Origin: Gracilariopsis chorda
Lineage: Eukaryota > Rhodophyta > Florideophyceae > Gracilariales > Gracilariaceae
NCBI GenBank assembly: GCA_003194525.1
Contig: NBIV01000017.1
Location: forward strand, 1 to 64,000
Length of the DNA: 64,000 bases
Reading direction: 5' to 3'
Shown here: positions 22,340 through 60,566 of the stretch, piece by piece
How positions within the stretch are numbered: position 1 is the first letter of the stretch
Layout: each line of letters starts with the position of its first letter
Position numbers and translations under genes: made by a program
The notes under the pieces: model-generated
Told to the model about the DNA's origin: nothing
Seen by the model: only the letters and a program-made list of their open reading frames with translations
Databases searched by the model: none

Positions 22340-22351
22340 TGTCCAGTCCGA

Positions 22352-23458
22352 TTATGGGCAGGAAGAGAGCGTGTGTAAGTGTTCCCTGCATCTTCCAAAT
22401 CGCCTTTGACCCGCAATGAGTAGCGCCTCAAACTCTAGGACCATTTCAGGGATCGGCGAATCATTCCTCGCTTGAGCTGCAACCAGAACCCACGCAAAGT
22501 ACAAACGATAGGGTCCTCGATCGAGGCGCTCAGCAGAGTGCATGATTGTCGTATCAAACTACTGCTGTGGCTGCTGTGAGAAATGCGCAGTGATCTCGTA
22601 CTGTTCAACTTCCATGGGAGCAGGCATCTGCTTTTCTTCTTGTCCAGCCTGCGGCAGAGCAGGCTGCTGCAGCGGATGTTCGATAGCAGGAGTCGTCTCA
22701 TCCTCTTCTGCGGCCATCACAACGGGCATATGTTCTGCAGGCACCGGTGGGAGAGGGGGAGGCATCAGAGGCGGAGAGATGTGATTCGGAAGGCCTCTCA
22801 CAAACTCCAGAAATCTAAGTATATGGCATGGAGTTGGTAGACCTCTGGCAACAGACCCAGGTGCTCCAGCGGTGTTTCTGGTAACTGCCGCTGCAACCGA
22901 ATTAGATGCATGAGTAATTTCGTCTTCTTCCACAGCTGGACCAATAGGTCCTTGAACGTGCACTTCGCTGTTCTTTACCCCCATCTCATCTGTTGCGAGA
23001 CGAAACGGCAATCCTCGAGGTCTTCCGAATCGTGGCCGTAATCCACCACTATCCACTCGACTATCCCCAGTGTTTTGCCTTGCGCTGCCTGATGTCTCTC
23101 TCGCACATCCAGAACTGAATGGAGCACCTCTCGAATGACCTTGAACACCTCGAGAATTTGTTTTTACCCCACCAGAATTCGTGGATAGACTTCCTCGCAT
23201 CATAGTGAATTACAAAAGAAGAAAAAATCAATGCCACTGTTTTGAACCCCAGAAACTTTGCCAGAGTTCCAGAAAAATTCCAATACAAACCAAGTTGAAA
23301 GTGAAAAACAGTGGTTGCAGTTTATTGCTTTGGGTCCACGGTGCCTACTTGAATTACCAGTTAAGAAACTGCTGCAAGACGTATACTTACTCAATTCAGT
23401 CGTTAGCAGCACAAGGACTCCCCACAAACACTTATTGAACTTTGACTAGCAAAGTATG
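22352..23458 (-). other. Low-complexity coding-like region upstream of Helitron
   Basis: A 214-codon open frame at 22559-23203 is Ser/Gly/Arg-rich at first (repeated SRGVQGHSRG-like units), then Pro/Glu-rich (PPLMPPPLPPVP). A 63-codon frame follows at 22352-22543. They sit just upstream of the Helitron Cys-rich region on the same strand and may be its disordered leader. No domain is recognised. The rest, up to the Gypsy LTR at 23459, shows nothing. Confidence 0.35.
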
Positions 23459-24265
23459 TGTGGTGCAATGCCCCAAAGGGGAAAAACACCGAAAGACGTC
23501 CGGGATCTTCCTCTCACGAGGTGAACCCAGTTGGGTAGAGCCCTCCCAGTGGTGTCACGGCGAAGCCGGTTTGTAAGACCAGGGACACCTGTCGCGACTC
23601 GCGCAGGGAGGTGAAGGCGAAGAATCGGTATCCGCGTGAGCGGGGTGTGATCCTCAGTAGAGGTATGTTTCCACGTAAGTGGGGGTGTGTGAGCGGATGC
23701 GCACACGAGGGCCGCGGATAGCGGGAGGTGCTACCCTAAAAAGGGGAAAGAGGAAGGACGAGTGGGTCGCGAGAGCGACGAGTAGATACGGCAATGCCGG
23801 TGGACAGGACTCCCTATACAGGGCGAAACACCAATATGATTGGAACAATTAGTACTCCCAATGATGGGTCTCCTTTAGATGTGCAAGGGGGGTGAACTTC
23901 CGTACACTACGGTGCTTCCCTCCAAGGAGGAGTTGAGAACACGCGGAGGCGGTAAAGCTCAGAGCCAATTCCCCAGGTTGGGGTCCCTTGTTGGGGAAGG
24001 TTTACTGGTGCGACGGCAGTGCACCGTCGCACTAAGTACTAGCTTCCCAGAAATGGGTGTAGAAATAATAAATAAAATTAACTAAAATACTCCACATTCC
24101 GTGGCAACATCCACTACTGTGGCCAACCGCCAATTGACCCAAAACCGTGTCCCACGTGTCCATATCCACCATAGTGGGGCGTAGTTCATATACACACTAC
24201 ACAACCGATAATATCGGGAAAGCGTTCAAGTACCCAGAATCCCTCCTTGCGGGCGTTGCACTACA
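23459..24265 (-). repeat. LTR, left side of Gypsy copy A
   Basis: Starts TGTGGTGCAATG on the plus strand and ends GCACTACA. A purine-tract complement (TATCCCCCCCTAAG) lies just inside, so this is the 3' LTR of the minus-strand element. It is preceded by GTATG (23454-23458), whose mate is the inverted CATAC at 42515-42519. By eye it differs from the left LTR of copy B by only about 1-2%, which suggests a young insertion. Confidence 0.9.
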
Positions 24266-24583
24266 TATCCCCCCCTAAGACGGGAAAACGACCGCGGACG
24301 CGGAGGGTTCCCAGACGAAAATGGGTGATAAAAGCGCGTGCGCCGTCTCCGGTTCTCCGGTAATTTCCTCTGCATCGGAGTCACTAGCCCCTGATACCGC
24401 AGCCGTTGTTTCCTAGTTCTTCTTTCCCGGCATAGCCAGCAGTGTAGTATAGTGTTGTGGGGAGCTAGCTGCTCCCTTGAATAAACTTTCCCGTTTAGAA
24501 CGGTGATTCTCGTTTGAGTTCCCCGTCTTCGACGGACCTTGTCTTGTTATCCTTTCCTTTCGCTCTCCGCTCGCGCGGCAACG

Positions 24584-27500
24584 TTACCCAACTTGGGCAT
24601 TTACCAGCGTGGCTGGAGCTGCAGTTCCCGTTTGACGGTGGTATCGCACGACCTGCGACCGTGGGAGGTGTTCGATTGGCTCCCACGTATCCCCACTGGG
24701 GTCGTACCCGTACCAGCGGACGCGGTATTGTAGAATACCATCCTGGTCCCAGGTGTGTCCGACAAGTCGGTCTACTACGAACTCTCGTTCGTAGACCTGC
24801 CGGCCGTGCCGGGTGGTGGTTGTACTTCCCTGCGGGGGCTGCCCGCTGTGCGGTATAATGTCCCTTAGCAGGGTGTTCGGCGATAACTCCGACGTTGCCG
24901 TGCGCTGTCCTAGTGGCCGCTGCTCATGCGGGAAAATATCCCTCAAGAGGGTGTGTGGTGTCACGGTTTTCACCGGCAAGTCGTTCCCCATTGGGGTGTC
25001 GTTGTTCCCGTCTTCACGGTAGGCCGGGCGAACCGCCAGTCGGCGGGGGACTTGGGCTCCGCCTTCGCGGTTGAGCTCACGAACCGCGAGTTTGCGGGAA
25101 GATGACCGCTCCTGCGGGATCGTCATTTCCACAATCCCCTGGGGGGTCCCGTGCGACACGGTGATTGGGTGGCAAGACGCCTCCCTGCCAGGCGCACGAG
25201 CGCTCTGCACCATACGTTCCGGCGACGCCGTGGTGTTCCCGGCTACTGACGGGTTGCCTGGGGCTAACTCCGGTACACCGGTATTTTGGTCAAAATTCCC
25301 CTTTGGGGGGTTCTGGGCAGGTGCCGATGACACCCTTTTCAGGGGAATTGCCGCTGAGCGCAGTGCACCATCTCCGTGATGAGAAGCAGCGTCCGGTACG
25401 ACCGGTTTCGAGCGTGCGATGGCGCGCGTTATTCCCGAGTTTCTCGGTTCTTCGCCGCAGCGATGCGGGGGTTGGCGCAAATTATTCCCCGTAGCGGGGG
25501 CTTTGATTCCGTCAACGACGGGAGGCGTTTCCGGTGCTTGCAAGCCAGGGCTTAAAGCTTCGACTGCAGCTTGGCCGCCTTTTTCCCCAAGAGGGGTGTG
25601 GGTATTTCCCAGCGGCGCTGGTGTATCTGGGCGCCTCTTCTCCGCGGGGCGCGGGTCTGATCGACCTGATTGAACCAATTCCGCGGGGACTTCCGCCAAC
25701 GGCTGCTTCGAGGCATCGGGCGATTGCCTTTCCGCTGGTGCGGTCTTGGAGTGAGGCTTCTCGTTTTCCCCTGACAAACGGTGTATTTGCCGCTTTTGCG
25801 GGGCCTGCGCGTCTGGTTCCTGTTGCACAGCACTGCCCGGGAACGGGGGATTAGTGTCGGGTGACATACTCCGTGCTCCAGGGTCAGTGTTCCGTATGTT
25901 ACGGTGTGTTTCCCGTTGCGACGGTGATATCGTTCCTCGAAAACGAGTGTTCTCCTCCCCTCCTTAGACGGAGCGGCGGGATAAGGGATAACATTCCCCG
26001 CCTGGCGGGTATAAATGCGCGCCAGTGGGGCAGATGTGGTAGGGGCGGGCGCTGAGGGGCCCGAATTACCCGGCTGAGCCGGTGAGTCCGACAGAGTCGG
26101 TACGTCTGAGAGTCCCCGGCTGGGGTGTGGTAGTACCGTAGGTCTAGTACTCCCGGATTGTTCCGGTGTAGCGGAGTCCGTAGAAACGGGGTTGCCCGGA
26201 CCCAGGACTACCTCTGACGAGGGAGGAGGGGCAAGGACAACACGATCACGGGAAATCCGTTCGTGCGTGTCCCCCATCTCTACCACGACAGTGTCGGTGT
26301 TAACAGAGATCACCTTGAAGGGTCCATCCGCCACAGGCGAGAGTTTGTGACGCTTCTCCCGTTCCGGGTTGTAGTATTCCTTCCTGATGAAGACGTAGTT
26401 ATTTGCCCGAATCGGGGACGGTTTTCCTCGCACGCGAGCGTCAAAATCTCGCTTGTAAGCGGCTTGGGCCCGTGCCATAGACTTCCGCGCAGCGGGGACC
26501 AGCTTGGAAAGCCATTGCTTCCATTGCTGCCGGTAGATACCCACAGATGGGAAATTGTCCAAGGTAGCTTGGGGTTCCAGCGCCACAGGCGGGGGTGTTC
26601 TAGATAGAACTAACTCGAATGGCGAAACTTCGGTAGTCCGGTGTACCTGCGTATTGTACGCGTAGGTTACCGCATCAGCGTAGAGATCCCAATTCTTTGG
26701 GTGGTCAGCGACGTAGGAACGTAACGCCGCGAGTAACGTCCGGTTAAACCGTTCAACTTGCCCATTACACTGGGGGTGGTAGGTAGTCGTGAACAAGTTC
26801 TTGACATCCAGGATGCGACAAACATCCTGGAAGAACTTGCTCACGAACTGCTTCCCGTTGTCAGAGAGCACCTCTACAGGGGGACCGTAGACAAAAATCC
26901 AGTGCGTCACCAGAGCCTGGGCCACCGTGAGAGCGGTTATCCTCCGAAGAGGGACAGTCCGTACCAGCTTAGAAAAGCGGTCGGTAATGACAAGTAGAAA
27001 CTTGTTTCCACGTTTCGTGGTGAGTAATGGTCCGAGAATATCGATCGCAATAAACTCGAGCGGCGCCCTTGCGGGGAATAGTTTCATCTTCTTCGCATTT
27101 TTGCGCAGTTTGACGCGATTCTTCGCGCATTCGCTACAAAACCGCACAGTTGCGTAGCAATCCACCGCCATTGCGGGCCAATAGAAATCCCTTCGCAGGG
27201 TTAGGTAGAGTTTCCTCCCACCTGGGTGACCTCCAATGGGGGCGTAGTGTGATAGATGTAACACCCGCGATTGCAGGGAATGTGGTACCACAATCTGTGG
27301 GCGGGCTTCGACCTTTCTTACGAGGTAGCCTTTGTCGTTTACCCCGAAAGGGAGATCTTCACCACCGTTGATACGGGCACGAATTCTCGTACAGAATGGG
27401 TCGCCGAATTGTTCTCGGATCATTTCTTCCGGTGATACCGGTACAAAGTTTCCCGGTAACGGGTTCTCAGATTTATCTCGCGATGCGAGTAGTTCGTCAA

Positions 27501-30144
27501 AATCAGCATCCTCGTCCCAGGTTTCTGGCCTAGCCTCGACGGCATGTTCCGGATCATCCGGGTCTATAGCCATGAAGCATGGGACTTCATCATCCTCCGT
27601 TGGGAGTGCTTCCCCACGTGTGGGTAACCGCGATAAAGCGTCGGCCTGGGTGTTCTGCGCACCCTTTTTATAAATGAATTGAAAGTCATATTCCGCGAGG
27701 CGGAGTCTCCAGCGCATGAGGCGTCCCGACGGGTCGGAGATATTCATCAACCACCTCAATGAGGAATGATCCGTGTACACGGCGAAGTGAATTCCCATAA
27801 GGTAGGGGCGCAGAGTGGTCATCGCCCATACGACGGCGAGGCACTCTTTCTCCGATAAGGAGTAGTTCCGCTCATGAACATTGAGCGAACGTGACCAATA
27901 ACCAATTGGATGCCGTTCCCCCTCGGGGGTGGTTTGAAAAAGAGCACACCCGACTTGGTAGTCGCTCGAGTCCGTATCTACGGAGTATGACAACCCAAGT
28001 TTTGGGAGATGTAGGATTGGTGCTGATGTGACAGCCTCCTTTAAGGAGTTAAAAGCTTCCGATTGCTCGGGCGTAAATGTTCCCAGTTTTGGGGGGTTCC
28101 CCTTTCGCAACAACGCGTTCAGGGGCGCTGCAGTATCCGAAAAGTTCGGGATAAACCGTCGATAGACGTTGACCAGCCCCAGAAAGGAGCGCAGTTCCGT
28201 TTGAGTACGGGGTTCTTTCGCCTCAACGAGGGATTTGACTCGAGCTTTCTCGATCGCTAACCGTCCAGGACGGATAATGTGACCCAGATACTTCACAGTA
28301 TCTGTGAAAAACTCGCATTTCCTCAAGTTGAGGGTAATTCCCGCATCGCGGAGTACGGTGAGCACGTCTCGGACGTGAGTGAGATGGTCGTCCAACGAGT
28401 TGGAGAAGATGATGATATCATCAAGGTAGACCAGACAACTCCGCCACTTAAAGCGGTTGAGTAGAATATCTACTGCACGCTGAAAGGTGGCGGGGGCGTT
28501 GGTTAACCCAAATGGAATCCGCTTGAAGCGGTACGTTTCTGCATGGCAGGTGAATGCGGTTTTGTCGCGATCCTCCTGTCTGACAGGTACTTGCCAATAT
28601 CCCCAATTGGCATCAAGGGCCGTGAACACGGTGGCGTCTCCAAGGGAGTCAATGCACTCGTCCATACGAGGGATGGGGTACGTGTCCCTAACAGTCACGG
28701 CATTGAGCCGGCGGTAGTCGACAAAGAACCTCCAGGTTCCGTCGGCCTTTAAAGCCAGTACAACTGGGGATGCCCAGGGTGATTAAGCGGGCTCAATCAC
28801 ACCTGCGCGGAGCATCTTGTCCACCTGGGACTGCTCCTCTTCCCGAACTTTCGGACCTGCCCTGTAAGGGGGTTGTGCAACCGGTCGCGCACCGGGGATT
28901 AAATCGATCCGGTGTTCCGTTGCATTAATCTCGCCAAGCGAGCCATCCCACATTGTGGTGAATTCCCGTAACATAGTACGGAGTTTGTCGCGGCGCGACT
29001 CTGGCACGTGGCTGAAGTCCAGCGCTTCAAGTGCTTTTTCCGGATCAATCCGGTCATTGCTCGATGGAGCATTGTCCTGTGGAACAGGTGTGGTTCGCAA
29101 TTCCGAGTTACTCGGTATCTTCGGCGCTGAAGTAGCGGTTTCCTCCCCCTCCTTAGACTTGACGTCTTTGGACGGCGGGGCGAACTCCTCAGAAGAGGTT
29201 ATAGCTCCAAGTACATCGGCGGCTGTCATCTTTGTTGGCAGCATTCCCATAGGATGGGGGGTTACACTCCCAATTACTTGGTGTTTGACCAGATACTGGG
29301 GGTGTTTGCCAAGGTTGGCAACCAATATCCGGAAAGGGACATCCGGGGAAATGGAGACAATTCCATTAGCCAGCGCCAGCTGGGATTTCTCGTACAACGA
29401 GGCGAGGGGTTGTATAACCCGAAGACCGTGTTGACGGGAATTTACCTGCACCCAGACTTGGGACTCAGCCGGTATAGAAACCGAGGCAGCGACGCGGAGC
29501 TTGGTGGACTCGCGGGACGCGGGCGGTGGTTCCTGCGCAGCAGGGAGCGGAACTTGTTTCCGAGAGGACCGCTTTAGCGGGCGGCGAACAATTGGAACCG
29601 ACGATCCGTCGTCAAGTTCTACACGCCTGAGGCGGGGCCTGATTGCGTCGACAAATCTGTCGCAGTAATCACATCCCAGTATGACTGGTGCTGCCAATGA
29701 ACGGCAAACGATGAAGTCCAACTTCACCACGGAGGTACCAAGTCTCACGACGAGGTCCACTGTGCCCACCGTTTGTAACGGGTTGTTATTCGCATCCGAA
29801 ATGTTGGGGACCGCGTCAGAGCGGATACGAGACCGCACAAGCGGGGGTAACAATGATTCCACAACGAAGTTGGGGCCTGCACCTGTATCCAGGACGGTGA
29901 GAAACCTCACCATAAACTGGGGGTCAAGGCCAAGGTCGGCATAGACCTTATAAATGCGCTTGGCCAAGACCAAGACTCTACCGGGAATCCGAGGATTTTT
30001 ACTCCGTATCCACGGGCGACGCAACACACCGAGGTGCGCAGAATCCGCGTCAGCGGTGTCTTTCCTCGAGAGGACTTTCACCGGGGAGCGAGGCGAGGAC
30101 GCCTCGGGCGCCAACAGCCTCGTTCTTGAGGACGCCTCTCCCAA
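24584..30144 (-). other. Gypsy copy A pol region
   Basis: Fossil pol with recognisable parts in Ty3/Gypsy order. An aspartic protease (DTGAGPNFV) is followed by RT with the YLDD box and RNase H. Integrase comes next, with an HHCC zinc region and a D-D-E core (VLSDNGKQF, NGQVERFNR). A long Pro/Ser-rich extension of roughly 400 residues follows, and a chromodomain (QYRVRWYGYDPSGDTWEP) lies at the very end. Chromodomains of this type steer integration toward marked chromatin. The region is broken in about two or three places. Confidence 0.85.
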
Positions 30145-30161
30145 AGGGGAGACTCCCTCAG

Positions 30162-32336
30162 TTAGTTTTCCGCCTTCGGCGGTGGGTTGGTTTCCTCGAC
30201 AACGAGTGCTTCATCCCGTTGACGGGGGTTTCTATCCGCATAAGCGGGGGTTGCAACGGATGGTTGCGTGATCTCCCGAATCGGGGTGTATGAAGCTTGC
30301 CGCGCACGCGGGGTCTGTGGTAGGGCGTGGGAAAAGTCCGTTTTAGCACGGAGGTAGGAAGACGTCGGGACGGAACGTTTCTCCTCTGGAGTGAGGGCCT
30401 CATAATTTGCCACCACCTTGGCCATATCCTTCAGTGAACAAATACACTGAGGAGAGGTATGGCCATGGGCATAGCACAGGTGGCAAATGAGAGCCAGCAC
30501 CGCGAAACGCGGATTATTATTCCGAGTATCGGAGAAGCGAACCGCAGGGCGGGTGTCAGTCCATCCAGGCCGTTGATAACGGGATTGACCGTTTGAAAAC
30601 GGGAGTCGTTGGGGTTGAACCCGACTGTTACCACCGTACAAAACGGGGTCTTCCGTTCCCGTATCACGGGTCATCTCCGTCGTTGACGGTAAATCACTGG
30701 TGGGTATGGACACACCATCCTCCTGCACTAAATGCACGGTATCAAATCCCTGTCCAGGGTTCCCATCCGCATTGAGCGGGAGTGAGGAAGCTTCGCTTTC
30801 TAGCAACAACGCCTTGGTGGATTTAGACCGATTGTTCGGAGTTCTTGCACGAAGTGCATCCCCTTTTACTCGGGCGTGTTGGACCAGCTCGAGGTAGGTG
30901 ATCCTCCGCTTGTCCTCGCGATAACGCATAACTAAACTCCGGATTGCCGGGTCAAGACCATCAATGAACATGGTACTGCGCTCCCCAGCGGGGTATACGT
31001 TACCACATCTGTGGAAAGCCTTGTTAAGGCGCACCGAGTAATCAGTCTCGACCTCTCCAGCACGCTGGCTTGTGTCTCGCAAAGCAAGGATAGCCTGCTG
31101 AATAGCGGTGTTTGTGGCGTAAGAGCGCAGAAGATACTGCACAGCCTCCGCCCAGCAAGTAACTCCTCCCTCGGAGGCACGAGAAGATCCTCTGACAGAG
31201 GTGTATTGGTCCTCCGCCACTCCCCGTAAGAAATACGGTAAAGCCAAATAGCCTTGTCCCTCATTCATACCGAGGATATTGGCCTCCGCTACAAAGCGGG
31301 ATAGGAAATTCAGTACTAGGACTGGGTCCTCTCCAGTAAAATACTGGTTGCGGAGCGAGAGCTGCATTCGCTTAATGCATTCTCGCACCTTTCCCGTACC
31401 ACGGGGCGTACGTCCAAGTGACGAGTCTTCGAGCCGGTAGTACCGGTATGATAAAAGCTTCCGGTAATCCGGGTTTGTCGGTTTCAATTCCCGAAGACCA
31501 GGGTGTCTTCTCCCCTTCTGGCGGGTTCGGACCACACATTCAGTGGCCGATGACCGCTTCGAGCGGGAGGAGTAGCCTCGCTTCTCGTCCTCCGAGTCGG
31601 AGTCCGAGGAGCTCGAGCTAACCGAATGGTTTCGGGATGAGTCCGACGATGTCGAAGAACCGGAGTCCGAATATTTTCGGTGGTGTTTCCGTCGATGACG
31701 GCGTTTCTTCTTCCCAGCAAGCTGGTCGTTGTGCGATGCCTCGTTTACCGGATCATCCGGGGATGGTTTGTCCATGAGTACGAACTGCTCCAGCGTCTCC
31801 AGGCGGGCACCAATCCGATCAAATCGGGCTTCAACTCCTTCGATGAAGGTGGCGGGTTGTCCCATACTCTCCAACACGGAGTTGACGTCAGACCGTAACA
31901 TACGGAGTTCCTCGGCGACCTCCTTTACGGGGGTTGCCAAGACCACCTCTTGGAGGGATTTTAGTTCCCCTACAAGGTTGTCATGGGCGGTCCACAGAGC
32001 GCGGACCTGGGATTCCAGGTGAGTCCCCTGGGGGTTGTTATCGCCCGTTCCACGGGGGCTTAAAGCCGCGACAGCGGGAGCAGGCCGGGGTGCCTGGGGC
32101 ACTGCGGCAACAGCCGGAGTCGATGCTGCATTCCCCTGCGGGGGTGATAACGAGGGCAAAAGGAGGTTCCGGGGTTCCTGGTCGGGGGTATCATTCCGCG
32201 ATGAAGCGGCGCCAGTACGGCTGGAACTTGTCCGTATAGGGATACGGGGTACGAACCGAACTTCGGAAGTGTCCGCGTTGTCGCGGGAGCGACCATGCGT
32301 AACCACTGGATCCGCATCGGAGGGATTTCTCGACAT
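30162..32336 (-). other. Gypsy copy A gag region
   Basis: A long open gag of about 720 codons. It has a disordered N-terminal part, a Ser/Asp-rich patch with a Lys/Arg/His cluster (KKKRRHRRKHHRK), a capsid-like helical region and a C-terminal zinc knuckle (CHLCYAHGHTSPQC). Gag and pol lie in the same phase and are separated only by a short spacer. Copy B has the same arrangement. Some retroelement families express pol by read-through in such a layout. Confidence 0.85.
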
Positions 32337-32441
32337 GAGAAAATACAGTTACGACGGGAAACGATCACGGAACGTCCGGTAAATAAAAACAAACCTCGTA
32401 AGAGGGAAAACAAAAACCGATTCTAAGTCAGGAGACCACTT

Positions 32442-33270
32442 TGTGGTGCAAAATTCCCCAAAGGGGAAAAATACCGAAAGACGTTCGGGATCTTCCTCTC
32501 AAGAGGTGAACTCAGTTGGTTAGAGCCCTCCCAGAGGTTTCACGGCGAAGCCGGTATGTAAGACCAGGGACACCTGTCGTGACTTGCGCAGGGAGGTGAA
32601 GGCGAAGAATCGGTATCCGCGTGAGCGGGGTGTGATCCTCAGTAGAGGTATGCTTCCACGTGAGTGGGGGTGTGTGAGCGGATGCGCACACGAGGGCCGC
32701 GGATAGCGGGAGGTGCTACCCTGAAAATGAGAAGAAGGAAGGGCGAAGAGGAGGAAGAGAGGAAGAAGTGAGTTGCAAGAGCGACGAACAGATACGGCTA
32801 TGCCAGTGGACAAGACTCCCTATACAGGGCGAAACACCAATATGATTGGAACCATTATACTCCCAAGGATGGGGTTCTTTAAATGTGCAAGAGGGTTAGA
32901 TGTCCCGTGATTTACGGCGTTTTTTTCCAAGGAGGAGTAGAGCACGCGCGCAAGCGGCAACAACTAGAGCCAATTCCCAAGATTGGGGTCCGTTGTTGGG
33001 GAAAGTTTACTGTTGCGACGGCAGTGCGCCGTCGCACTAATTACTAGCTTCCCAGAAATGGGTGTGAAAATAACAAATAATATTAACTAAAATACTCCAC
33101 ATTTCGTGGCAACATCCACTACTGTGGCGAACCGCTAATTGACCCAAAACCGTGTCCCACGTGTCCATATCCACCATAGTGGGGCGTAGTTCATATACAC
33201 ACTACACAACCGATAATATCGGGAAAGCGTTCAAGTACGAAGAATCCCTCCTTGAGGGCGTTGCACTACA
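32442..33270 (-). repeat. LTR, right side of Gypsy copy A
   Basis: 829 bp, the 5' LTR of the minus-strand element. It carries the roughly 20-bp GA-rich insertion found only here and in the right LTR of copy B. Its outer flank AAATT (33271-33275) reads AATTT on the other strand and matches AATTT at 52156-52160. It has the most private changes of the four LTRs. Confidence 0.9.
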
Positions 33271-42298: not shown

Positions 42299-42519
42299 TC
42301 AGGTCCTCTTCTGTAATTTAATGGTCGCTAAACGGCGATCCGGGGAGTAGGAGAGTTCTCCAAACTTACGATCAGCTTGTTGTGCAAAGCCCAGGGCGTC
42401 CACCGCTTCATACATTTTGGAGCCGGATAAGAGAATTAAGTGTGTGAGTAAAGGCAGAACCATTTCATTAACCGCACGGGGCTTAGAAATCAAGGGGTAA
42501 GAAAACCGGTTTAGCATAC
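42299..42519 (-). CDS. Small open frame abutting the Gypsy insertion site
   Basis: On the minus strand an open frame of about 73 codons begins at the edge of the Gypsy LTR (LNRFSYPLISKPRAVNEM) and ends in a TGA (LATIKLQKRT). It is cut or headed by the insertion. The Gypsy target site GTATG supplies an ATG just before it in the original arrangement. No family was recognised, and it may be a chance frame. Confidence 0.25.
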
Positions 42520-43327
42520 TGTAGTGCAACGCCCGCAAGGAGGGATTCTGGGTACTTGAACGCTTTCCCGATATTATCGGTTGTGTAGTGTGTATATGAA
42601 CTACGCCCCACTATGGTGGATATGGACACGTGGGACACGGTTTTGGGTCAATTGGCGGTTGGCCACAGTAGTGGATGTTGCCACGGAATGTGGAGTATTT
42701 TAGTTAATTTTATTTATTATTTTCACACCCATTTCTGGGAAGCTAGTACTTAGTGCGACGGCGCACTGCCGTCGCACCAGTAAACCTTCCCCAACAAGGG
42801 ACCCCAACCTGGGGAATTGGCTCTGAGCTTTACCTCCTCCGCGTGTTCTCAACTCTTCCTTGGAGGGAAGCACCGTGGTGTACGGAAGTTCACCCCCCTT
42901 GCACATCTAAAGGAGACCCATCATTGGGAGTACTAATTGTTCCAATCATATTGGTGTTTCGCCCTGTATAGGGAGTCCTGTCCACCGGTATTGCCGTATC
43001 TACTCGTCGCTCTCGCGACCCACTTCGTCCTTCCTCTTTCCCCTTTTTAGGGTAGCACCTCCCGCTATCCGCGGCCCTCGTGTGCGCATCCGCTCACACA
43101 CCCCCACTCACGTGGAAACATACCTCTACTGAGGATCACACCCCGCTCACGCGGATACCGATTCTTCGCCTTCACCTCCCTGCGCGAGTCGCGACAGGTG
43201 TCCCTGGTCTTACAAACCGGCTTCGCCGTGACACCTGTGGGAGGGCTTTACCCAAGTGGGTTCACCTCGTGAGAGGAAGATCCCGGACGTCTTTCGGTGC
43301 TTTTCCCCTTTGGGGCATTGCACCACA
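42520..43327 (+). repeat. LTR, left side of Gypsy copy B
   Basis: 808 bp, TGTAGTGCAACG...GCACCACA, the 5' LTR. It lacks the GA-rich insertion, like the left LTR of A. Just inside, TGGTCTCCCGACC sits where a tRNA primer-binding site is expected; the tRNA was not identified. Confidence 0.9.
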
Positions 43328-43432
43328 AAGTGGTCTCCCGACCTAGAATCGGTTTTTGTTTTCCCTCTTACGAGGTTTGTTTTTATTTACCGGACGTTCC
43401 GTGATCGTTTCCCGTCGTAACTGTATTTTCTC

Positions 43433-45607
43433 ATGTCGAGAAATCCCTCCGATGCGGATCCAGTGGTTACGCATGGTCGCTCCCGCGACAACGCGGACAC
43501 TTCCGAAGTTCGGTTCGTACCCCGTATCCCTATACGGACAAGTTCCAGCCGTGCTGGCGCCGCTTCATCGCGGAATGATACCCCCGACCGGCAACCACGG
43601 AACCTCCTTTTGCCCTCGTTATCACCCCCGCAGGGGAATGCAGCATCGACTCCGGCTGTTGCCGCAGTGCCCCAGGCACCCCGGCCTGCTCCCGCTGTCG
43701 CGGCTTTAAGCCCCCGTGGAACGGGCGATAACAACCCCCAGGGGACTCCCCTGGAATCCCAGGTCCGCGCTCTGTGGACCGCCCATGACAACCTTTTAGG
43801 GGAACTAAAATCCCTCCAAGAGGTGGTCTTGGCAACCCCCGTAAAGGAGGTCGCCGAGGAACTCCGTATGTTACGGTCTGACGTCAACTCCGTGTTGGAG
43901 AGTATGGGACAACCCGCCACCTTCATCGAAGGAGTTGAAGCCCGATTTGATCGGATTGGTGCCCGCCTGGAGACGCTGGAGCAGTTCGTACTCATGGACA
44001 AACCATCCCCGGATGATCCGGTAAACGAGGCATCGCACAACGACCAGCTTGCTGGGAAGAAGAAACGCCGTCATCGACGGAAACACCACCGAAAATATTC
44101 GGACTCCGGTTCTTCGACATCGTCGGACTCATCCCGAAACCATTCGGTTAGCTCGAGCTCCTCGGACTCCGACTCGGAGGACGAGAAGCGAGGCTACTCC
44201 TCCCGCTCGAAGCGGTCATCGGCCCCTGAATGTGTGGTCCGAACCCGCCAGAAGGGGAGAAGACACCCTGGTCTTCGGGAATTGAAACCGACAAACCCGG
44301 ATTACCGGAAGCTTTTATCATACCGGTACTACCGGCTCGAAGACTCGTCACTTGGACGTACGCCCGGTGGTACGGGAAAGGTGCGAGAATGCATTAAGCG
44401 AATGCAGCTCTCGCTCCGCAACCAGTATTTTACTGGAGAGGACCCAGTCCTAGTACTGAATTTCCTATCCCGCTTTGTAGCGGAGGCCAATATCCTCGGT
44501 ATGAATGAGGGACAAGGCTATTTGGCTTTACCGTATTTCTTACGGGGAGTGGCGGAGGACCAATACACCTCTGTCAGAGGATCTTCTCGTGCCTCCGAGG
44601 GAGGAGTTACTTGCTGGGCGGAGGCTGTGCAGTGTCTTCTGCGCTCCTACGCCACAAACACCGCTATTCAGCAGGCTATCCTTGCTTTGCGAGATACAAG
44701 CCAGCGTGCTGGAGAGATCGAGACTGATTACTCGGTGCGCCTTAACAAGGCTTTCTACAGATGTGGTAACGTATACCCCGCTGGGGAGCGCAGTACCATG
44801 TTCATTGATGGTCTTGACCCGGCAATCCGGAGTTTAGTTATGCGTTATCGCGAGGACAAGCGGAGGATCACCTACCTCGAGCTGGTCCAACACGCCCGAT
44901 TGAAAGGGGATGCACTTCGTGCAAGAACTCCGAACAATCGGTCTAAATCCACCAAGGCGTTGTTGCTAGAAAGCGAAGCTTCCTCACTCCCGCTCAATGC
45001 GGATGGGAACCCTGGACAGGGATTTGATACCGTGCATTTAGTGCAGGAGGATGGTGTGTCCATACCCACCAGTGATTTACCGTCAACGACGGAGATGACC
45101 CGTGATACGGGAACGGAAGACCCCGTTTTGTACGGTGGTAACAGTCGGGTTCAACCCCAACGACTCCCGTTTTCAAACGGTCAATCCCGTTATCAACGGC
45201 CTGGATGGACTGACACCCGCCCTGCGGTTCGCTTCTCCGATACTCGGAATAATAATCCGCGTGTCGCGGTATTGGCTCTCATTTGCCACCTGTGCTATGC
45301 CCATGGCCATACCTCCCCTCAGTGTATTTGTTCACTGAAGGATATGGCCAAGTTTGTGGCAAATTATGAGGCCCTCACTCCAGAGGAGCAACGTTCCGTC
45401 CCGATGGCTTCCTACCTCCGTGCTAAAACGGACTTTTCCCATGGCCTGCCACAGACCCCGCGTGCGCGGCAAGCTTCATACACCCCGATTCGGGAGATCA
45501 CGCAACCATCCGTTGCAACCCCCGCTTATGCGGATAGAAACCCCAGTAAACGGGATGAAGCACTCGTTGTCGAGGAAACCAACCCACCGCCGAAGGCGGA
45601 AAACTAA
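43433..45607 (+). other. Gypsy copy B gag region
   Basis: Open gag of about 720 codons, almost the same as in copy A, with the Ser/Asp-rich and basic patches and the C-terminal zinc knuckle. Confidence 0.85.
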
Positions 45608-45624
45608 CTGAGGGAGTCTCCCCT

Positions 45625-48600
45625 TTGGGAGAGGCGTCCTCAAGAACGAAGCTGTTGGCGCCGGAGGCGTCCTCGCCTCGCTCCCCGGTGAAAGTCCTCT
45701 CGAGGAAAGACACCGCTGACGCGGACTCTGCGCACCTTGGTGTGTTGCGTCGCCCGTGGATACGGAGTAAAAATCCCGGGATTCCGGGTAGAGTCTTGGT
45801 CTTGGCCAAGCGCAATTACATGGTCTATGCCGACCTTAGCCTTGATCCCCAGTTTATGGTGAGGTTTCTCACCGTCCTGGATACAGGTGCAGGCCCCAAC
45901 TTTGTTGTGGAATCATTGTTACCCCCGCTTGTGCGGTCTCGTATCCGCTCTGACGCGGTCCCCGACATTTCGGATGCGAACAACAATCCGCTACAAACGG
46001 TGGGCACAGTGGACCTCGTCGTGACACTTGGTACCTCTGTGGTGAAGTTGGACTTCATCGTTTGCCGTTCATTGGCAGCACCAGTCATACTGGGATGTGA
46101 TTACTGCGACAGATTTGTCGACGCAATCAGGCCCCGCCTCAGGCGTGTAGAACTTGACGACGGATCGTCGGTTCCGATTGTTCGCCGCCCGCTAAAGCGG
46201 TCCTCTCGGAAACAAGTTCCGCTCCCTGCTGCGCAGGAACCACCACCCGCGTCCCGCGAGTCCATCAAGCTCCGCGTCGCTGCCTCGGTTTCTATACTGG
46301 CTGAGTCCCAAGTCTGGGTGCAGGTAAATTCCCGTTAACACGGTCTTCGGGTTATACAACCCCTCGCCTCGTTGTACGAGAAATCCCAGCTGGCGCTGGC
46401 TAATGGAATTTTCTCCATTTCCCCGGATGTTCCTTTCCGGATATTGGTTGCCAACCTTGGCAAACACCCCCAGTATCTGGTAAAACACCAAGTAATTGGG
46501 AATGTAACCCCCCATTCTATGGGAATGCTGCCAACCAAGATGACAGCCGCCGATGTACTTGGAGCTATAACCTCTTCTGAGGAGTTCGCCCCGCCGTCCA
46601 AAGACGTCAAGTCTAAGGAGGGGGAGGAAACCGCTACTTCAGCGTCGAACATACCGAGTAACTCGGAATTGCGAACCACACCTGTTCCACAGGACAATGC
46701 TCCATCGATCAACGACCGGATTGATCCGGAAAAGGCACTTGAAGCGCTGGACTTTAGCCACGTGCCAGAGTCGCACCGCGACAAACTCCGTACCATGTTA
46801 CGGGAATTCACCACAATGTGGGATGGCTCGCTTGGCGAGATTAATGCAACGGAACACCGGATCCATTTAATCCCGGGTGCGCAACCGGTTGCACAACCCC
46901 CTTACAGGGCAGGTCTGAAAGCTCGGGAAGAGGAGCAGTCCCAAGTGGACAAGATGCTCCGCGCAGGTGTGATTGAGCCCGCTTAATCACCCTGTGCATC
47001 CCCAGTTGTACTGGCTTTAAAGGCCGACGGAACCTGGAGGTTCTTTGTCGACTACCGCCGGCTCAATGCCGTGACTGTTAGGGACACGTACCCCATCCCT
47101 CGTATGGACGAGTGCATTGACTCCCTTGGAGACGCCACCGTGTTCACGGCCCTTGATGCCAATTGGGGATATTGGCAAGTACCTGTCAGACAGGAGGATC
47201 GCGACAAAACCGCATTCACCTGCCATGCAGGAACGTACCGCTTCAAGCGGATTCCATTTGGGTTAACCAACGCCCCCGCCACCTTTCAGCGTGCAGTAGA
47301 TATTCTACTCAACCGCTTTAAGTGGCGGAGTTGTCTGGTCTACCTTGATGATATCATCATCTTCTCCAACTCGTTGGACGACCATCTCACTCACGTCCGA
47401 GACGTGCTCACCGTACTCCGCGATGCGGGAATTACCCTCAACTTGAGGAAATGCGAGTTTTTCACAGATACTGTGAAGTATCTGGGTCACATTATCCGTC
47501 CTGGACGGTTAGCGATCGAGAAAGCTCGAGTCAAATCCCTCGTTGAGGCGAAAGAACCCCGTACTCAAACGGAACTGCGCTCCTTTCTGGGGCTGGTCAA
47601 CGTCTATCGACGGTTTATCCCGAACTTTTCGGATACTGCAGCGCCCCTGAACGCGTTGTTGCGAAAGGGGAACCCCCCAAAACTGGGAACATTTACGCCC
47701 GAGCAATCGGAAGCTTTTAACTCCTTAAAGGAGGCTGTCACATCAGCACCAATCCTACATCTCCCAAAACTTGGGTTGCCATACTCCGTAGATACGGACT
47801 CGAGCGACTACCAAGTCGGGTGTGCTCTTTTTCAAACCATCCCCGAGGGGGAACGACATCCAATTGGTTATTGGTCACGATCGCTCAATGTTCATGAGCG
47901 GAACTACTCCGTATCGGAGAAAGAGTGCCTCGCCGTCGTATGGGCAATGACCACTCTGCGCCCCTACCTTATGGGAGTTCACTTCACCGTGTACACGGAT
48001 CATTCCTCATTGGGGTGGTTAATGAATATCTCCGACCCGTCGGGACGCCTCATGCGCTGGAGACTCCGCCTCGCGGAATATGACTTTCAAGTCATTTATA
48101 AAAAGGGCGCGCAGAACACCCAAGCCGACGCCTTGTCGCCGTTACCCACAAGTGGGGAAGCACTCCCAACGGAGGATGATGAAGTCCCATGTTTGATGGC
48201 TATAGACCCGGATGATCCAGAATATGCCGTCGAGGCTGGGCCAGAGAAATGGGACGAGGATGCTGATTTTGACGAACTACTCACATCGCGAGATGAATCT
48301 GAGAACCCGTTACCGGGAAACTTTGTACCGGTATCACCGGAAGAAATGATCCGAGAACAATTCGGCGACCCATTCTGTACGAGGATTCGTGCCCGTCTTA
48401 ACGGTGGTGAAGATCTCCCTTTCAGGGTAAACGACAAAGGCTACCTCGTAATGAAGGTCGAAGCCCGTCCACAGATTGTGGTACCTCATTCCGTGCAGTC
48501 GCGGGTGTTACATCTATCACACTATGCCCCCATTGGAGGTCACCCAGGTGGGAGGAAACTCTACCTAACCCTGCGAAGGGATTTCTATTGGCCCGCCATG

Positions 48601-51073
48601 GCGGTGGATTGCTACGCAACCGTGCGGTTTTGTAGCGAATGCCCGAAGAATCGCGTCAAGCTCCGCAAAAATGCGAAGAAGATGAAACTATTCCCTGCAA
48701 CGGCGCCACTCGAGTTTGTCGTGATCGATATTCTCGGACCACTACTCACCACGAAACTTGGAAACAAGTTTCTACTTGTCATTACCGACCGCTTTTCTAA
48801 GCTGGTACGGACTGTCTCTCTTCAGAGGATAACCGCTCTCACGGTGGCCCAGGCTCTGGTAACGCACTGGATTTTTCTCTACGGTCCCCGTGTGGAGGTG
48901 CTCTCCGATAACGGGAAACAGTTCGTGAGCAAGTTATTCCAGGATGTTTGTCGCATCCTGGATGTCAAGAACTTGTTCACGAATACCTACCACCCCCAGT
49001 GTAATGGGCACGTTGAACGGTTTAACCGGACGTTACTCGCGGCGTTACGTTCCTACGTCACGGACAACCCAACGAACTGGGACATGTATGCTGATGCGGT
49101 AGCCTACGCGTACACTACGCAGGTACACCGGACTACCGGAGTTTCGCCATTCGAGTTGGTTCTATCTAGAACAACCCCGCCTGTGGTGCTGGAACCCCAA
49201 CCTACCTTGGACAATTTCCCATCTGTGGGTATCTACCGGCAGCAATGGAAGCAATGGCTTTCCAAGCTGGTCCCCGCTGTGCGGATGTCGATGGCACGGG
49301 CCCAAGCCGCTTACAAGCGGGATTTTGAGGCTTGCTTGCGAGGGAAACCGTCCCCGATTCGGGCGAATAACTACGTCTTCATCAGGAAGGAGTACTACAA
49401 CCCAGAACGGGAGAAGCGCCATAAACTCTCGCCTGTGGCGGATGGACCGTTCAAGGTCATCTGTGTAAACACCGACACTGTCGTGGTAGAGATGGGGGAC
49501 ACGCACGAACGGATTTCCCGTGATCGTGTTGTCCTTGCCCCTCCTCCCTCGTCAGAGGTAGTCCTGGATCCAGGCAATCCCGTTTCTACGGACTCTGCAA
49601 CACCGGAACCATACGGGAGTACTAGGCCTACGGTACTACCACACCCCAGCCGGGGACTCTCAGACCTACCGACTCTGTCGGACTCACCGGCTCAGCCGGG
49701 TAATTCAGGCCTCTCAGTGCCCACCCCTACCACGTCTGCTCCAGGCAAAACGCCAGGCGGGGAATGTTATCCCTTATCCCGGCGCTCCGTCTAAGAAGGG
49801 GGAGGAGAACACTCGTTTTCGAGGAACGATATCGCCGTCGCAACGGGAAGTTGAAACGCAGCTACCGCACACCCCTGTCAAGGAGGGATCCCCGTTACAG
49901 GAGTACGGCGACGATCGCCCTCAATCCCCTGAGCAGGGCGATGCCTCGAAGCCGCCGTTGGCGGTAGTCCCCGCGGAAGCGGTTCAATCAGGTCGATCAG
50001 ACCCGCGCCTTGCGGAGAAGAGGCGCCCAGATACACCAGCGCCGCTGAGAAATCCCCACACCCAACCTGGGGAGAAAGGCAGCCAAGCCGCATCCGAAGC
50101 TTCAGGCCCTGGCCCGCAAGCGCCGGAAACACCTCCCGTCGTCGACGGAATTGAAGCCCCCGTTCCGGGGAATAATTTGCGCCACCTCCCGCAACGCTGC
50201 GGGGAAGAACCGAGGAACTCGGAAAATTCGCACGCCATCGCACGCTCGAGACTGCTCATACCGGACGCTGCTCCTCCGCGTGGAGACGTTGCACCGCACT
50301 TAGTGGCCAAGCCCCTGAGAAGGGTGTCATCGGCACCTGCCCGGCACCCCCCAAAGGGGAATTTTGACCAAAATACCGGTGTACCGGAGTTAGCCCCAGG
50401 CAACCCGTCAGTAGCCGGGGACACCACGGCATCGCCGGAACGTATGGTGCAGAGCGCTCGTGCGCCTGGCAGGGAGGCGGTTTGCCACCCAATCACCGTG
50501 TCGCACGGGACCCCCCAGGGGATTGTGGAAATGCCGATTCTGCAGGAGCGGTCATCTTCCTGCAAACTCGCGGTTCGTGAGCTCAACCGCGAAGGCGGAG
50601 CCCAAGTCCCCCGCCGACTGGCGGTTTGCCCGCAATACCGCGAAAGCAGGAATGAACCTGCCCCAATGGGGAATGACTTGCCGGTGAAAACCGTGGCACC
50701 ACACACCCTCTTGAGGGATATCTTCCCGCATGAGCAGCGGCCGCTATCACAGCGCACGGTAACGCCGGAGGTATCGCCGAACACCCTGCTAAGGGACATT
50801 ATACCTCACAGCGGGCAGCCCCCGCAAGGAGGTACAACCACCACCCGGCACGGCCGGCAGGTCTACGAACGAGAGTTCGTAGTAGACCGACTTGTCGGAC
50901 AGACCTGGGACCAGGATGGTATTCTACAATACCGCGTCCGCTGGTACGGGTACGACCCCAGTGGGGATACGTGTGAGCCAATTGAACACCTCCCACGATC
51001 GCAGGTTGTGCGATACCACCGTCAAACGGGAACTGCAGCCCCAGTTACGCTTGTTAATGCCCAAGTTGAGTAA
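45625..51073 (+). other. Gypsy copy B pol region
   Basis: Fossil pol with protease, RT, RNase H, integrase, a long Pro/Ser-rich extension and a terminal chromodomain, as in copy A. It has a few more breaks than A. Confidence 0.85.
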
Positions 51074-51328
51074 CGTTGCCGCGCGAACGGAGGGCGATAG
51101 GAAAGGATAACAAGGCTAAGTCCGTCGAAGACGGGGAACTAAAACGAGAATCACCATTCTAAACGGGTAAGTTTATTCAAGGGAGCAGCTAGCTCCCCAC
51201 AACACTATACTTTACTAGCTGGCTATGCCAGGAAAGGAGAACCGGAAACGGCGCACGCGATTTTATCACCCATTTTCGTCTGGGAACCCTCCGCGTCCGC
51301 GGTCGTTTTCCCGTTTTAGGGGGGGATA

Positions 51329-52155
51329 TGTAGTGCAACGCCCTCAGGGAGGGATTCTTGGTACTTGAACGCTTTCCCGATGTCATCGGTTGTGTAGTGT
51401 GTATATGAACTACGCCCCACTATGGTGGATATGGACACGTGGGACACGGTTTTGGGTCAATTGGCGGTTGGCCACAGTAGTGGATGTTGCCACGAAATGT
51501 GGAGCATTTTAGTTAATATTATTTGTTATTTTCACACCCATTTCTGGGAAGCTAGTACTTAGGGCGACGGCGCACTGCCGTCGCAACAGTAAACTTTCCC
51601 CAACAAGGGACCCCAACCTGGGGAATTGGCTCTAGTTGTTGCCGCTTGCGCACGTGCTCTACTCCTTCTTGGAGGGAAACGCCATAAACCACGGGACATC
51701 TAACCCCCTTGCACATTTAAAGAACCCCATCCTTGGGAGTATAATTGTTCCAATTATATTGGTGTTTCGCCCTGTATAGGGAGTCTTGTCCACCGGCATC
51801 GCCGTATCTGTTCGTCGCTCTCGCGACTCACTTCGTCCTCTCTTCCTCCTCTCCGCCCTTCCTTCTTCCCCTTTTTAGGGTAGCACCTCCCGCTATCCGC
51901 GGCCCTCGTGTGCGCATCCGCTCACACACCCCCACTAACGTGGAAACATACCTCTACTGAGGATCACACCCCGCTCACGCGTATACCGATTCTTCGCCTT
52001 CACCTCCCTGCGTGAGTCGCGACAGTTGTCCCTGGTCTTACAAACCGGCTTCGCCGTGACACCTCTGGGAGAGCTCTACCCAACTGGGTTCACCTCGTGA
52101 GAGGAAGATCCCGAACGTCTTTCGGTGTTTTTCCCCTTTGGGGCATTGCACCACA
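51329..52155 (+). repeat. LTR, right side of Gypsy copy B
   Basis: 827 bp, the 3' LTR, preceded by a purine tract (TTTTAGGGGGGGATA). It contains the GA-rich insertion shared with the right LTR of A. Flank AATTT follows at 52156-52160, where the Copia sequence resumes. Confidence 0.9.
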
Positions 52156-54985
52156 AATTTCGTCGAAATTTCTATCCAGTTCGTCTATTGCATCTTGCAC
52201 AGCCGTAGCTAGCTCGTTGTCGCACACTGCCGGTCAAACGTTCTCGATAGCTGCGCTGATCTTTTTCCCCTTAGCTCCAGGTACGGTTACGGTTCTGCTC
52301 TGAATATCGAATGCCAACACTGGCTTGTCCTGAGTCCATTTGACTTTCTTCTCTTGCTGGGTTTTGACGAAAATCTGCACCATGTCTCCAGCTGCTATTG
52401 GGCCTTCTGTGAACTTTTTGGATCGGAGTATCAATGTCAGCTTTCGTTTGGCCAGGAGGGTCTGGTGGGCATCTATCAATTCTTGTGGTACCAGCTTAGG
52501 CTTGCCATCATTCGCTACTAGTCTTGCGTACCTCTTTGCCAGTTCGTGAGCGGACAGTACATCATTGCCGTATAGATCATTGGTAACCCTGATAGCCTGC
52601 TGAATTAAAAGGGAGTTACACTGGTCGTTTGTTTCAAGTTCTGTGGATTCCTTGAGTCGAAGGTACACGTCTCTGATGATTTTGTGTTTGGATTCCAGTA
52701 CATTCTTGTTATGTCTGCGAGTGGGGAGTGGTCGAGCCTCTATGTCTTGATGCTGAAGGTATTTTTTGAATGCGTTATTCTCAAATGCACGGTCGTAAGC
52801 AACGTCCTGTGGTGTCCAAAAGGGTTTTATCCAGTGCGAATCAAAGACCGTGATGGCCTTGAACATTGAGGTATCTTCAACTGCAGCACCTACAGAATAT
52901 CTCGAAGCAGAATCCATAATATGCAGCACAGCGTGTTGTTCCAGAAACAGATGATCCACGCATACCACCTCGTTAAAGGACCTCGACATTGTGCTGAGAG
53001 AGACTTTCCTTGACGGCTTCGGCTTCGCAGTGGTTCTACAGGCGTGACACTTCTCCAGTACATATTGCAGATACTTATCCACCTTTGTGGTCGAAACGTT
53101 ATTTCGTTCCAAAAGAACTCTGATGTCGGAGTAGCTAGAGTGTCCGCAAACATGTTTGTGGTCCTTGTCCACTACTTTCTGTAAATCCTTCCACGGTCGT
53201 CCAATAAAGTCGCCATCAAGATGCGCAATAGCACAGAATAGTGCACTTTCGTTCTCAGCTGTCGTTTGCTCCGATTCGTACGTAAATACGGAGTGTGGGA
53301 TGTAGGTGTGCATATCTCTGTCGACTAACGTGATGTGTCCCTGGCACTTGCCGGTTTCGTCTGATGGAAGCTTCAATAGGTGTTGATTGATTCGCAAGAT
53401 ATCGCAGTAGTTGGTAACGTTGCGTCCTACAACCCATTGAAACGACCCCTCGATTACCAAATGTCTGATACACACAATCTTCCCTTCGTCGGTTCGTGCC
53501 TTGATCATGATTGATCCAAGTATTTTTTTTCCCGGGCTCTTGTGTTCTCCGGTACCGTAATGGCAGAACGGTCTGTCTGGGACCACGTTGGGTAGAGCCT
53601 CAAGAGTCCCATTCCATTCAGGACAGATAAATTCAGCAATCCGACGAAGCTCAAAAAGACCAATCCCACTGTACGGTGCAGCGTTGTCGAGAAGCGGTCC
53701 TACGAAGTCTTCCAGAGTTGAGGATTCGAGTGAAATCAACTCAGCAATATTGAGAGTAATAACATTGTTTTCTCTGTTGTCTCTGCTGGGAGGTGCATCG
53801 AAAGATTTAAATATAGGCTTGAACGATCCATCTCGTTTGTGATCTTTAGCCCAGTGTCCATACTTGCCACATCGATTGCATGTGGTCCTTTTCTTTAGAT
53901 CGGCGATCTGTTCTGGGGTTCTACGGTGCCCTTGGTTGTTCCTTTTATGTGAACGCGAGTTGGTGGGCGCTGAGTTTGCAGAGAGCGGGTTCGTCGATGG
54001 CTCTCCTCCAGAGCTCTTCATTATGTCGCATTGCCTGAGAACCGAAGCTATTGATTCGTAAGAGACTGCTTTCAAGTAATCGTTCGTGGTTGAAGTCGCA
54101 TTAAGGCTGGAGTCCCTAGGCGCACCATTCGCAAGAACCGATACTCTTTGGTGGTTGTCTACATCGGCGTGAGCTAGAAGGGCGAATGCCACGAGCGATT
54201 CGGAAAGCTTAGCTTCCTATCCATGCGCGTTGAGCCTCGATATCTGAGCCTGAAACCTGAGCTCGAAATTCTTAAAGCTTTCGTTATGCTTTGTCTTCGT
54301 GTTCATAAGCGACAAATAATCTTGAAAAACATCCGACACTATGGCGAGTGGGTCTCTCTTGTACAGTGCCTCTACGATAGCATCTGCTCCGTCTTCTGAT
54401 CGTATAACTTCTACGGGGATTGCTTTGCAAATATCTCGTGCTCGACCATAGAGCTGTGATTGCAACATAATTACACTAACTTCCTTCGAAATATTGTTGC
54501 TATTCGAGTCCGTTAACGTATCGTGAAACGCCTGCCATAGCGAAACTGCTTCCGCATATTCTTCTTGATTGCCACGACCGTCGTTCCAAGGCACAGTCCT
54601 GATGTCCCATGAAAAACGTGGCCTCAACGGCAGGTTGGTTGAGCTTTCTGGGCCCATAGCAATGAAAAAGATGGATAAACGAACGGATAAACTGAAGCAC
54701 GCTTTATTGTTATCCTCTGTTGTGCTTGAATAAACCTTCTACCACGAGTATCGCAGTTAGGTCCTTATATAGTCCATTCCAAAGGAGGAGAGTCAGCCCT
54801 AATCATTAATCCAGTAGCCACGCAATCGTAATAGCCCTGCCATGTAATAGCTCGCAACCTCTGCATAGCAACGTAATAAGCACCCAAGAGTGTGACTACG
54901 AAAATGACCACATACGAAATGCAAAACGACCTATGCATCGAACCAAATCAAATGCAAGCAAGCCACCTTTTGTACTTGCATTACA
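52156..54985 (-). mobile_element. Ty1/Copia element, 5' part (LTR, gag, protease, integrase)
   Basis: Minus-strand piece that starts with the 5' LTR (54663-54985). Gag (54217-54657 and on) follows, then a zinc knuckle (CNRCGKYGHWAKDH), a protease-like region and an integrase. The integrase has HxxxH...CxxC and an acidic triad region (VVCVDHL, AYDRAFEN, NVLESKHK). It is truncated by the Gypsy copy B LTR at 52155. It is the partner of the inverted piece at 33271-35644. Besides the truncation it has about one or two breaks. Confidence 0.85.
54663..54985 (-). repeat. Copia 5' LTR
   Basis: 323 bp, inverted copy of 35322-35644 with about 7 differences, including the same TATA box and AATAAA. Outer flank ATAAT (54985-54989) is the reverse complement of ATTAT at 35644-35648. 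This is a matching target-site duplication if the ends are taken one base inside TG..CA. Confidence 0.88.
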
Positions 54986-60530: not shown

Positions 60531-60566
60531 CCCTCGAAGAACTACATTCTTTCCGGCACATATGTT

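Follow-up and report, generated by a model that had tools for sequence, protein, structure and literature searches.

Two opposed Gypsy elements with exchanged target-site duplications

Does the order of sequences around two opposed retrotransposons in the red alga Gracilariopsis chorda record an inversion made by these elements, and where did the exchange take place? The question is raised by the stretch of DNA analyzed here (the window), which comprises bases 1–64000 of contig C17 (528,819 bp), from an assembly that totals 91.3 Mb on 1081 contigs. The window contains two homologous Gypsy long terminal repeat (LTR) retrotransposons, element A on the minus strand (23459–33270) and element B on the plus strand (42520–52155), with a spacer of 9,249 bp between them (33271–42519). 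The results suggest that the C17 order probably arose by inversion through homologous recombination between the two elements, and that the assembly contains two versions of the locus, of which this is one. Four marks of an inversion mediated by a transposable element (TE) are found together here: opposed copies, exchanged target-site duplications, chimeric copies and an independently known uninverted order.

The two elements, one at each breakpoint, are 9.6–9.8 kb long and 96–91% identical. Both contain the Pfam domains RVT_1, RT_RNaseH, H2C2, rve and Chromo. The Gypsy order of reverse transcriptase, RNase H and integrase, the C-terminal chromodomain, and LTRs with 5-bp duplications place them among the Ty3/Gypsy chromoviruses; the 5-bp duplication of this class was seen around the element here called Gypsy 2 on a second contig, C454. 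The first open reading frame (ORF) of B (43433–45607) is gag by position only, without a Pfam match.

A previous sequence-only reading of the window had reported that neither Gypsy copy has matching flanks of its own and that the target-site duplications are crossed between the copies, and both observations hold at all coordinates. On the plus strand, GTATG at 23454–23458 (left of A) is the reverse complement of CATAC at 42515–42519 (left of B), and AAATT at 33271–33275 (right of A) is the reverse complement of AATTT at 52156–52160 (right of B). The first pair represents the target of the element called Gypsy 1, a 5-mer that occurs as a single copy at C454:21824–21828, and the second pair represents the target of Gypsy 2, both copies of which border Gypsy 2 on C454.

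A third exchanged duplication, which had gone unreported, belongs to a Copia element with inverted LTRs. Its 3' part (33271–35646, plus strand), with the reverse transcriptase and the 3' LTR (35320–35646), lies within the inverted spacer, and its 5' part (52156–54987, minus strand), with a weak zinc-knuckle match and the 5' LTR (54661–54987), lies outside the inversion; the two are complementary parts of one element, as had been proposed. The duplication ATGAT follows the first part at 35647–35651, and its partner ATCAT follows the second at 54988–54992. The Copia LTRs, 327 bp each and inverted to each other, are 97.9% identical. The RVT_2 reverse transcriptase in the ORF at 33252–35297 (plus strand), together with LTRs bordered by 5-bp duplications, identifies the element as Ty1/Copia. 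The gag zinc-knuckle match at 52234–54192 (minus strand) is weak (E = 0.005, below the cut-off of Pfam), and no integrase domain was matched in the two ORFs scanned. A PTM/DIR17 Tudor-like match (E = 1.1e-6) in the Copia ORF lies directly before the reverse transcriptase, at 33444–33545, and is possibly the SH3-like end of the integrase. When the Copia LTR was delimited as TG...CA, no matching 5-bp duplication was obtained; two solo LTRs on contigs C45 and C308, with 5-bp duplications GTGTC and GCAGC, give the ends as TATG...CATT. Since three 5-mers are exchanged, a chance match of the duplications was rejected. The inversion cut a nested pair, Gypsy 2 within Copia, and the two copies of each target-site duplication were parted for three elements in all.

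The uninverted order on contig C454

Contig C454 (34,615 bp, same assembly) was compared with the window over its whole length. It is colinear with window positions 55158–10657, reversed, except for the inversion and Gypsy 1. On C454 the Copia LTRs are direct, and Gypsy 2 lies inside Copia between two AAATT copies (C454:3003–12580). After the spacer comes the left flank directly, with CATAC present once and Gypsy 1 absent, so that this is an empty site. Compared with C454, the spacer of C17 is thus reversed relative to its flanks. The two contigs differ by substitutions at 104 of 12772 left-flank positions, 44 of 9243 spacer positions and 31 of 2994 right-flank positions, and they are likely to be alleles.

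The C454 order is taken as ancestral, and the target of Gypsy 1 provides evidence for this that is independent of C454. The target is an old repeat, one end of which (41814–42514, minus strand) is detached in the window from the remainder at ~16774–23453. Paralogues with both sides of this repeat listed within 500 bp were obtained in five of 18 left-side matches, and in all five (on C1, C45, C208, C294 and C432) the spacing is 17 bp, as in an unbroken target, with the two sides of the repeat in opposite strands of the query. The remaining 13 matches have no listed partner in tables that score the best candidates only.

In contig C220 the left flank seemed to have a third version. This contig ends at window position 20050 and is hence uninformative on the inversion. 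It has no substitutions relative to C17 in two samples of 317 and 217 bases (with four gap positions in the first), and a reported identity of 98–99% over longer stretches. C220 departs from C17 at window position 5304 (C220:66284), where contig C380 still matches C17; this disagreement may be an assembly error in one of the joins or a structural difference.

Pairing of the LTRs

If the elements exchanged parts, their LTRs should match between rather than within copies. The LTR lengths given by the sequence-only reading were confirmed as 807 bp for A-left (23459–24265, minus strand), 829 bp for A-right (32442–33270, minus strand) and 827 bp for B-right (51329–52155, plus strand), and as 808 bp for B-left (42520–43327, plus strand) after trimming of two bases beyond its end. 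The insertion of about 20 bp that had been used to pair them is a 20-column indel that separates the two types. A-left and B-left differ by 13 substitutions in 807 positions and A-right and B-right by 51 in 827, with 61–83 substitutions in 805–806 positions in the four cross pairs. Trees of the LTRs, which had been suggested as a check, pair left with left and right with right.

We built a tree of 52 LTRs, i.e. the six of the locus and those of 46 other copies. A-left and B-left fall inside one young subfamily, separate from the subfamily of A-right and B-right. A-right groups with the 5' LTR of Gypsy 2 on C454 with a support of 100/100, and B-right with the 3' LTR with a support of 100/99. 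The corresponding distances are 16 of 829 (1.9%) for the 5' LTRs and four of 827 (0.5%) for the 3' LTRs. Topologies joining A-left to A-right or B-left to B-right were rejected by approximately unbiased (AU) tests, with p values of 9.6e-9 and 1.9e-43, respectively. The clade of A-left and B-left rests on five shared derived substitutions; two of these states occur in 0 of 18 other sampled copies of the subfamily, yet they are common in the other subfamily. From the distances, the tree and, for A-left and B-left, the shared derived substitutions, A-left is assigned as the 3' LTR and B-left as the 5' LTR of Gypsy 1, and A-right and B-right as the 5' and 3' LTRs of Gypsy 2.

Proposed crossover zone and conversion tracts

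With Gypsy 2 of C454 as the reference, we constructed a three-way map of A and B from 498 informative sites. To the left of the best single cut (44634–44647) there are 78 A-type and nine B-type sites, and to the right 27 and 384, respectively; this placement of the cut ignores that both A and B are of Gypsy-2 type around it. Thus, the 5' part of A and the 3' part of B are Gypsy 2, which makes the elements reciprocal chimeras; none of 1000 shuffles came near this distribution of sites. Element A consists of the 3' part of Gypsy 1 (23459 to ~30.5 kb) and the 5' part of Gypsy 2 (~30.5 kb to 33270), and B of the 5' LTR of Gypsy 1 followed by the body and 3' LTR of Gypsy 2.

The left edge of the exchange was resolved with sites that separate 12 copies of the young subfamily from Gypsy 2 of C454. 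Up to 43343, 64 of 78 such sites are of young type in B and of Gypsy-2 type in A. This combination is found at none of the 43 sites between 43384 and 44725, of which 34 are of Gypsy-2 type in both elements, eight of young type in both and one mixed; the eight would be changes in C454 alone. A is of Gypsy-1 type by 45263 (B coordinates) onward; for its sequence from position 30500 down, the 39 best matches apart from A itself lie outside the locus, at 98–99%. The stretch of Gypsy-2 type common to A and B thus covers 43344–45262 in B (plus strand; left edge 43343–43384, right edge 44725–45263), mostly within the first ORF, and approximately 30507–32425 in A (minus strand; converted from B coordinates by alignment). 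Within it, A and B differ at 15 of 1879 positions.

Over the 1.5 kb that follow the 5' LTR, the pairwise differences among A, B and Gypsy 2 of C454 amount to 15–19 sites (1.0–1.3%). All 23 comparable other copies (those of the 46 with enough sequence behind the 5' LTR) are 37–73 sites (2.5–4.9%) away. As we read this tract, it would represent a crossover accompanied by conversion of 1.3–1.9 kb of Gypsy 1 by Gypsy 2, and we infer that tract and crossover are a single event.

A second patch, at 46946–47778 of B (plus strand), differs between A and B at two of 833 positions, compared with 96 of 1722 beside it, and Gypsy 2 of C454 is strongly different there. In this patch A is the best genomic match of B other than B itself, and Gypsy 2 of C454 is not among the best 40 listed. 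The patch would be a stretch that B took over from A without crossover, and it may be the later of the two exchanges. Gypsy 2 of C454 has gaps of 27 bp and 50–51 bp relative to both A and B opposite 46646–47351 of B; the 27-bp gap lies inside the second patch and the other about 250 bp before it. Part of the contrast could stem from an alteration of C454 by a third copy. Elsewhere in their internal parts, away from the tract and this patch, A and B differ by 3–11%.

On these data, the breakpoints lie inside the elements, and the inverted segment extends from ~30.5–32.4 kb to ~43.3–45.3 kb, a length of ~11–15 kb. The inversion of 9.2 kb (33271–42519) that had been put forward corresponds to the spacer only; positions 33271 and 42519 as points of exchange are ruled out by the three-way map and the subfamily sites.

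Proposed history and alternative explanations

The sequence itself shows the insertions, the empty site, both chimeric elements and the Gypsy-2-type stretch that they share, and because an unflipped version occurs in the same assembly, the steps can be read. Copia would have inserted first, with the duplication ATGAT. Gypsy 2 would then have entered Copia, with the duplication AAATT, and this state without Gypsy 1 would be the one kept on C454. In the other lineage, Gypsy 1 would have inserted into the older repeat at CATAC, opposed to Gypsy 2 and about 9 kb away from it. Recombination between the two just behind the 5' LTR may then have replaced ~1.3–1.9 kb of Gypsy 1 with Gypsy 2 sequence, the crossover inverting all that lies between the elements. 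A shorter stretch of pol would have been copied, perhaps later, from A to B without crossover. The order of events that had been suggested, in which Copia was followed by a Gypsy inside it, a second opposed Gypsy and recombination between the two, is supported by the uninverted C454, whereas the extent given to the flipped segment is not.

The duplications and the LTR pairing had also been presented as proof of an inversion. They are compatible with an assembler flip inside the repeats, so this signature alone is not proof: all inversion markers lie on repeats of 9.6–9.8 kb, and an assembler switch in their shared stretch would therefore look alike. If so, the true chromosome is uninverted, Gypsy 1 received its Gypsy-2 stretch by non-crossover conversion, and the assembler switched copies where they are 99% identical. 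The 15 differences in 1879 positions leave room for such a switch, and a large family strains the assembly (two first-look genome searches returned 1812 and 1894 candidate places, 40 of which were scored in each); the searches found no third contig with the spacer or the right flank by which the join could be checked. An error of this kind nevertheless needs a real conversion and a mistake placed in the same tract, where a crossover with conversion needs one event, and the 15 differences look like those of separately diverged sequences and not of one collapsed read set, and the rest of the internal sequence, beyond this tract and the second patch, is 3–11% different. As the tracts have separately diverged and a real conversion is needed as well, we consider an assembly flip unlikely, and we infer that the C17 order is real. 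It is quite improbable that C454 represents a duplicate from another part of the genome and the inversion a difference between paralogues. In favour of this, no second near-identical version of the MULE region at 55200–63900 was found among the matches listed; against it, C454 and C17 are colinear over 44.5 kb with a divergence of 0.4–1.0% outside the elements, and C454 as a contig both begins and ends within the homologous region.

Inversion by recombination between the two Gypsy elements is also compatible with repeated flipping, in which the opposed copies act as a lasting switch, the gene-bearing spacer of ~9 kb turns over repeatedly and the Gypsy-1 chromosome circulates in either orientation. 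In favour of this, A and B carry the record of two separate exchanges (43.3–45.3 kb and 46.9–47.8 kb). We give this extension very little probability: the sole uninverted version seen is without Gypsy 1, an uninverted Gypsy-1 chromosome not having been observed, most of the bodies of A and B are still 3–11% different, and the later date of the second exchange is weakly supported. In principle, the duplications would also be arranged as they are here had Gypsy 2 transposed into CATAC in a single aberrant or replicative step that turned the DNA between donor and target. In that case Gypsy 2 would be the source of both copies, and A-left would be expected to group with B-right, the two being 3' LTRs. 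This is contradicted by the different subfamilies of A-left/B-left and A-right/B-right in the LTR tree, by the AU tests and by the chimeric bodies; such a one-step inverting reaction is not known for LTR retrotransposons, and we rejected it as hardly conceivable.

Several observations weigh against the inversion as reconstructed here. The join of C17 rests on assembly across repeats of 9.6–9.8 kb with 96–91% identity. The support for the clade of A-left and B-left is moderate (94/85) and is a weak point; at least six other genomic LTRs are nearer to A-left (7–10 differences) than B-left is (13), and one genomic copy is nearer to B-left (12 differences) than A-left is (13). The Gypsy-1 LTRs are 1.6% apart, while flanks and spacer differ by just 0.4–1.0% from the version free of Gypsy 1. 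A simple inversion that suppresses recombination predicts a spacer more divergent than the flanks; the pattern between C17 and C454 is the opposite (44 of 9243 in the spacer, 135 of 15766 in the flanks, p = 4.5e-4). The younger age of the second patch is also weakly supported (2/831 versus 15/1499, p = 0.04; 2/833 versus 15/1879, p = 0.11).

Divergence between the LTRs of one element does not date the steps here. The Gypsy-2 pair differs at 51 of 827 positions on C17 and 59 of 827 on C454, and the pair of the enclosing Copia at seven and nine of 327 (p = 0.004 and 0.003, respectively), so the LTR clock contradicts the nesting order. Because Gypsy 2 is nested in Copia and yet is more divergent in its LTRs, LTR dating was given up. 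Conversion with other copies is a possible cause of this conflict. Relative to the commonest letters of its subfamily, Gypsy 2 has 46 substitutions in its 5' LTR and 23 in its 3' LTR, an unequal rate within one element.

Other features of the window

A gene within the inversion, an ORF of 474 amino acids at 37746–39170 (minus strand), encodes a protein 99% identical to the hypothetical protein BWQ96_10530 of Gracilariopsis chorda and 40% to a Gracilaria domingensis protein. The window has no tRNA and no Rfam match. Positions 4000–13651 contain a mobile-looking multi-copy element with whole or partial matches of 91–93% on 11 other contigs among the matches listed; it carries a DNA N6/N4 methylase ORF (5212–6204, minus strand) and an inverted repeat of 166 columns at 7611–7772. 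GC skew swings from -0.50 to +0.37 over the first 14 kb of the window (1–14 kb). A MULE-type DNA transposon at 55452–63100 has terminal inverted repeats of 234 bp (84.6%) and ORFs for a MULE transposase and an Ulp1/C48 peptidase, with 17 matches over 5.5 kb at 85–89% among those scored.

Discussion

The locus holds an unusually complete record of a TE-made inversion, in which the ancestral version, the empty site, both partners, the crossover zone and a conversion tract are readable. It opens the question of whether 99% identical stretches of opposed LTR elements set the breakpoints of inversions, and whether conversion between opposed LTR pairs continues. Two warnings follow as well: from exchanged duplications alone, an inversion is indistinguishable from a switch of copies by the assembler, and at this locus the LTR divergences put nested insertions in the wrong order. 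PMC7251063 deals with LTR age, gene conversion and ectopic recombination in plant LTR retrotransposons and shares with the present work the topic of sequence exchange and LTR-based dating; as outlined, that study is an element survey in fifteen plant species and apparently includes no inversion case.

The closest known case comes from Drosophila buzzatii, whose inversion 2z3 is reportedly far larger than the present one of ~11–15 kb. That inversion was made by the transposon Galileo, and its account takes up 2j and 2q7, two cases known before it, as well (PMC2775673). According to this account, 2z3 and the present locus have in common opposed copies at the breakpoints, exchanged target-site duplications, and chimeric copies whose terminal repeats match between and not within copies (PMC2775673). 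The locus had been called a rare case; it is not rare in kind, since exchanged duplications with chimeric copies are the published signature of a TE inversion (PMC2775673). The systems differ in that Galileo is a DNA transposon and the elements here are LTR retrotransposons, in that the non-inverted chromosomes of Drosophila are described as having single target copies whereas here only the site of Gypsy 1 is empty and Gypsy 2 is present, and in that the exchange here left 1.3–1.9 kb of one type in both copies (PMC2775673).

In Saccharomyces cerevisiae, gross rearrangements are mediated by Ty1, which, like the present Gypsy elements, is an LTR retrotransposon acting through dispersed copies; as presented there, the Ty1 rearrangements accumulated in yeast experiments, whereas the present one is a standing difference between two natural versions of a locus (PMC3102749). 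No case of a TE-made inversion in red algae was found among the matches listed in the literature searched. The kind of event is already known from fruit flies and yeast, and an instance made by LTR retrotransposons in a red alga adds to that kind.

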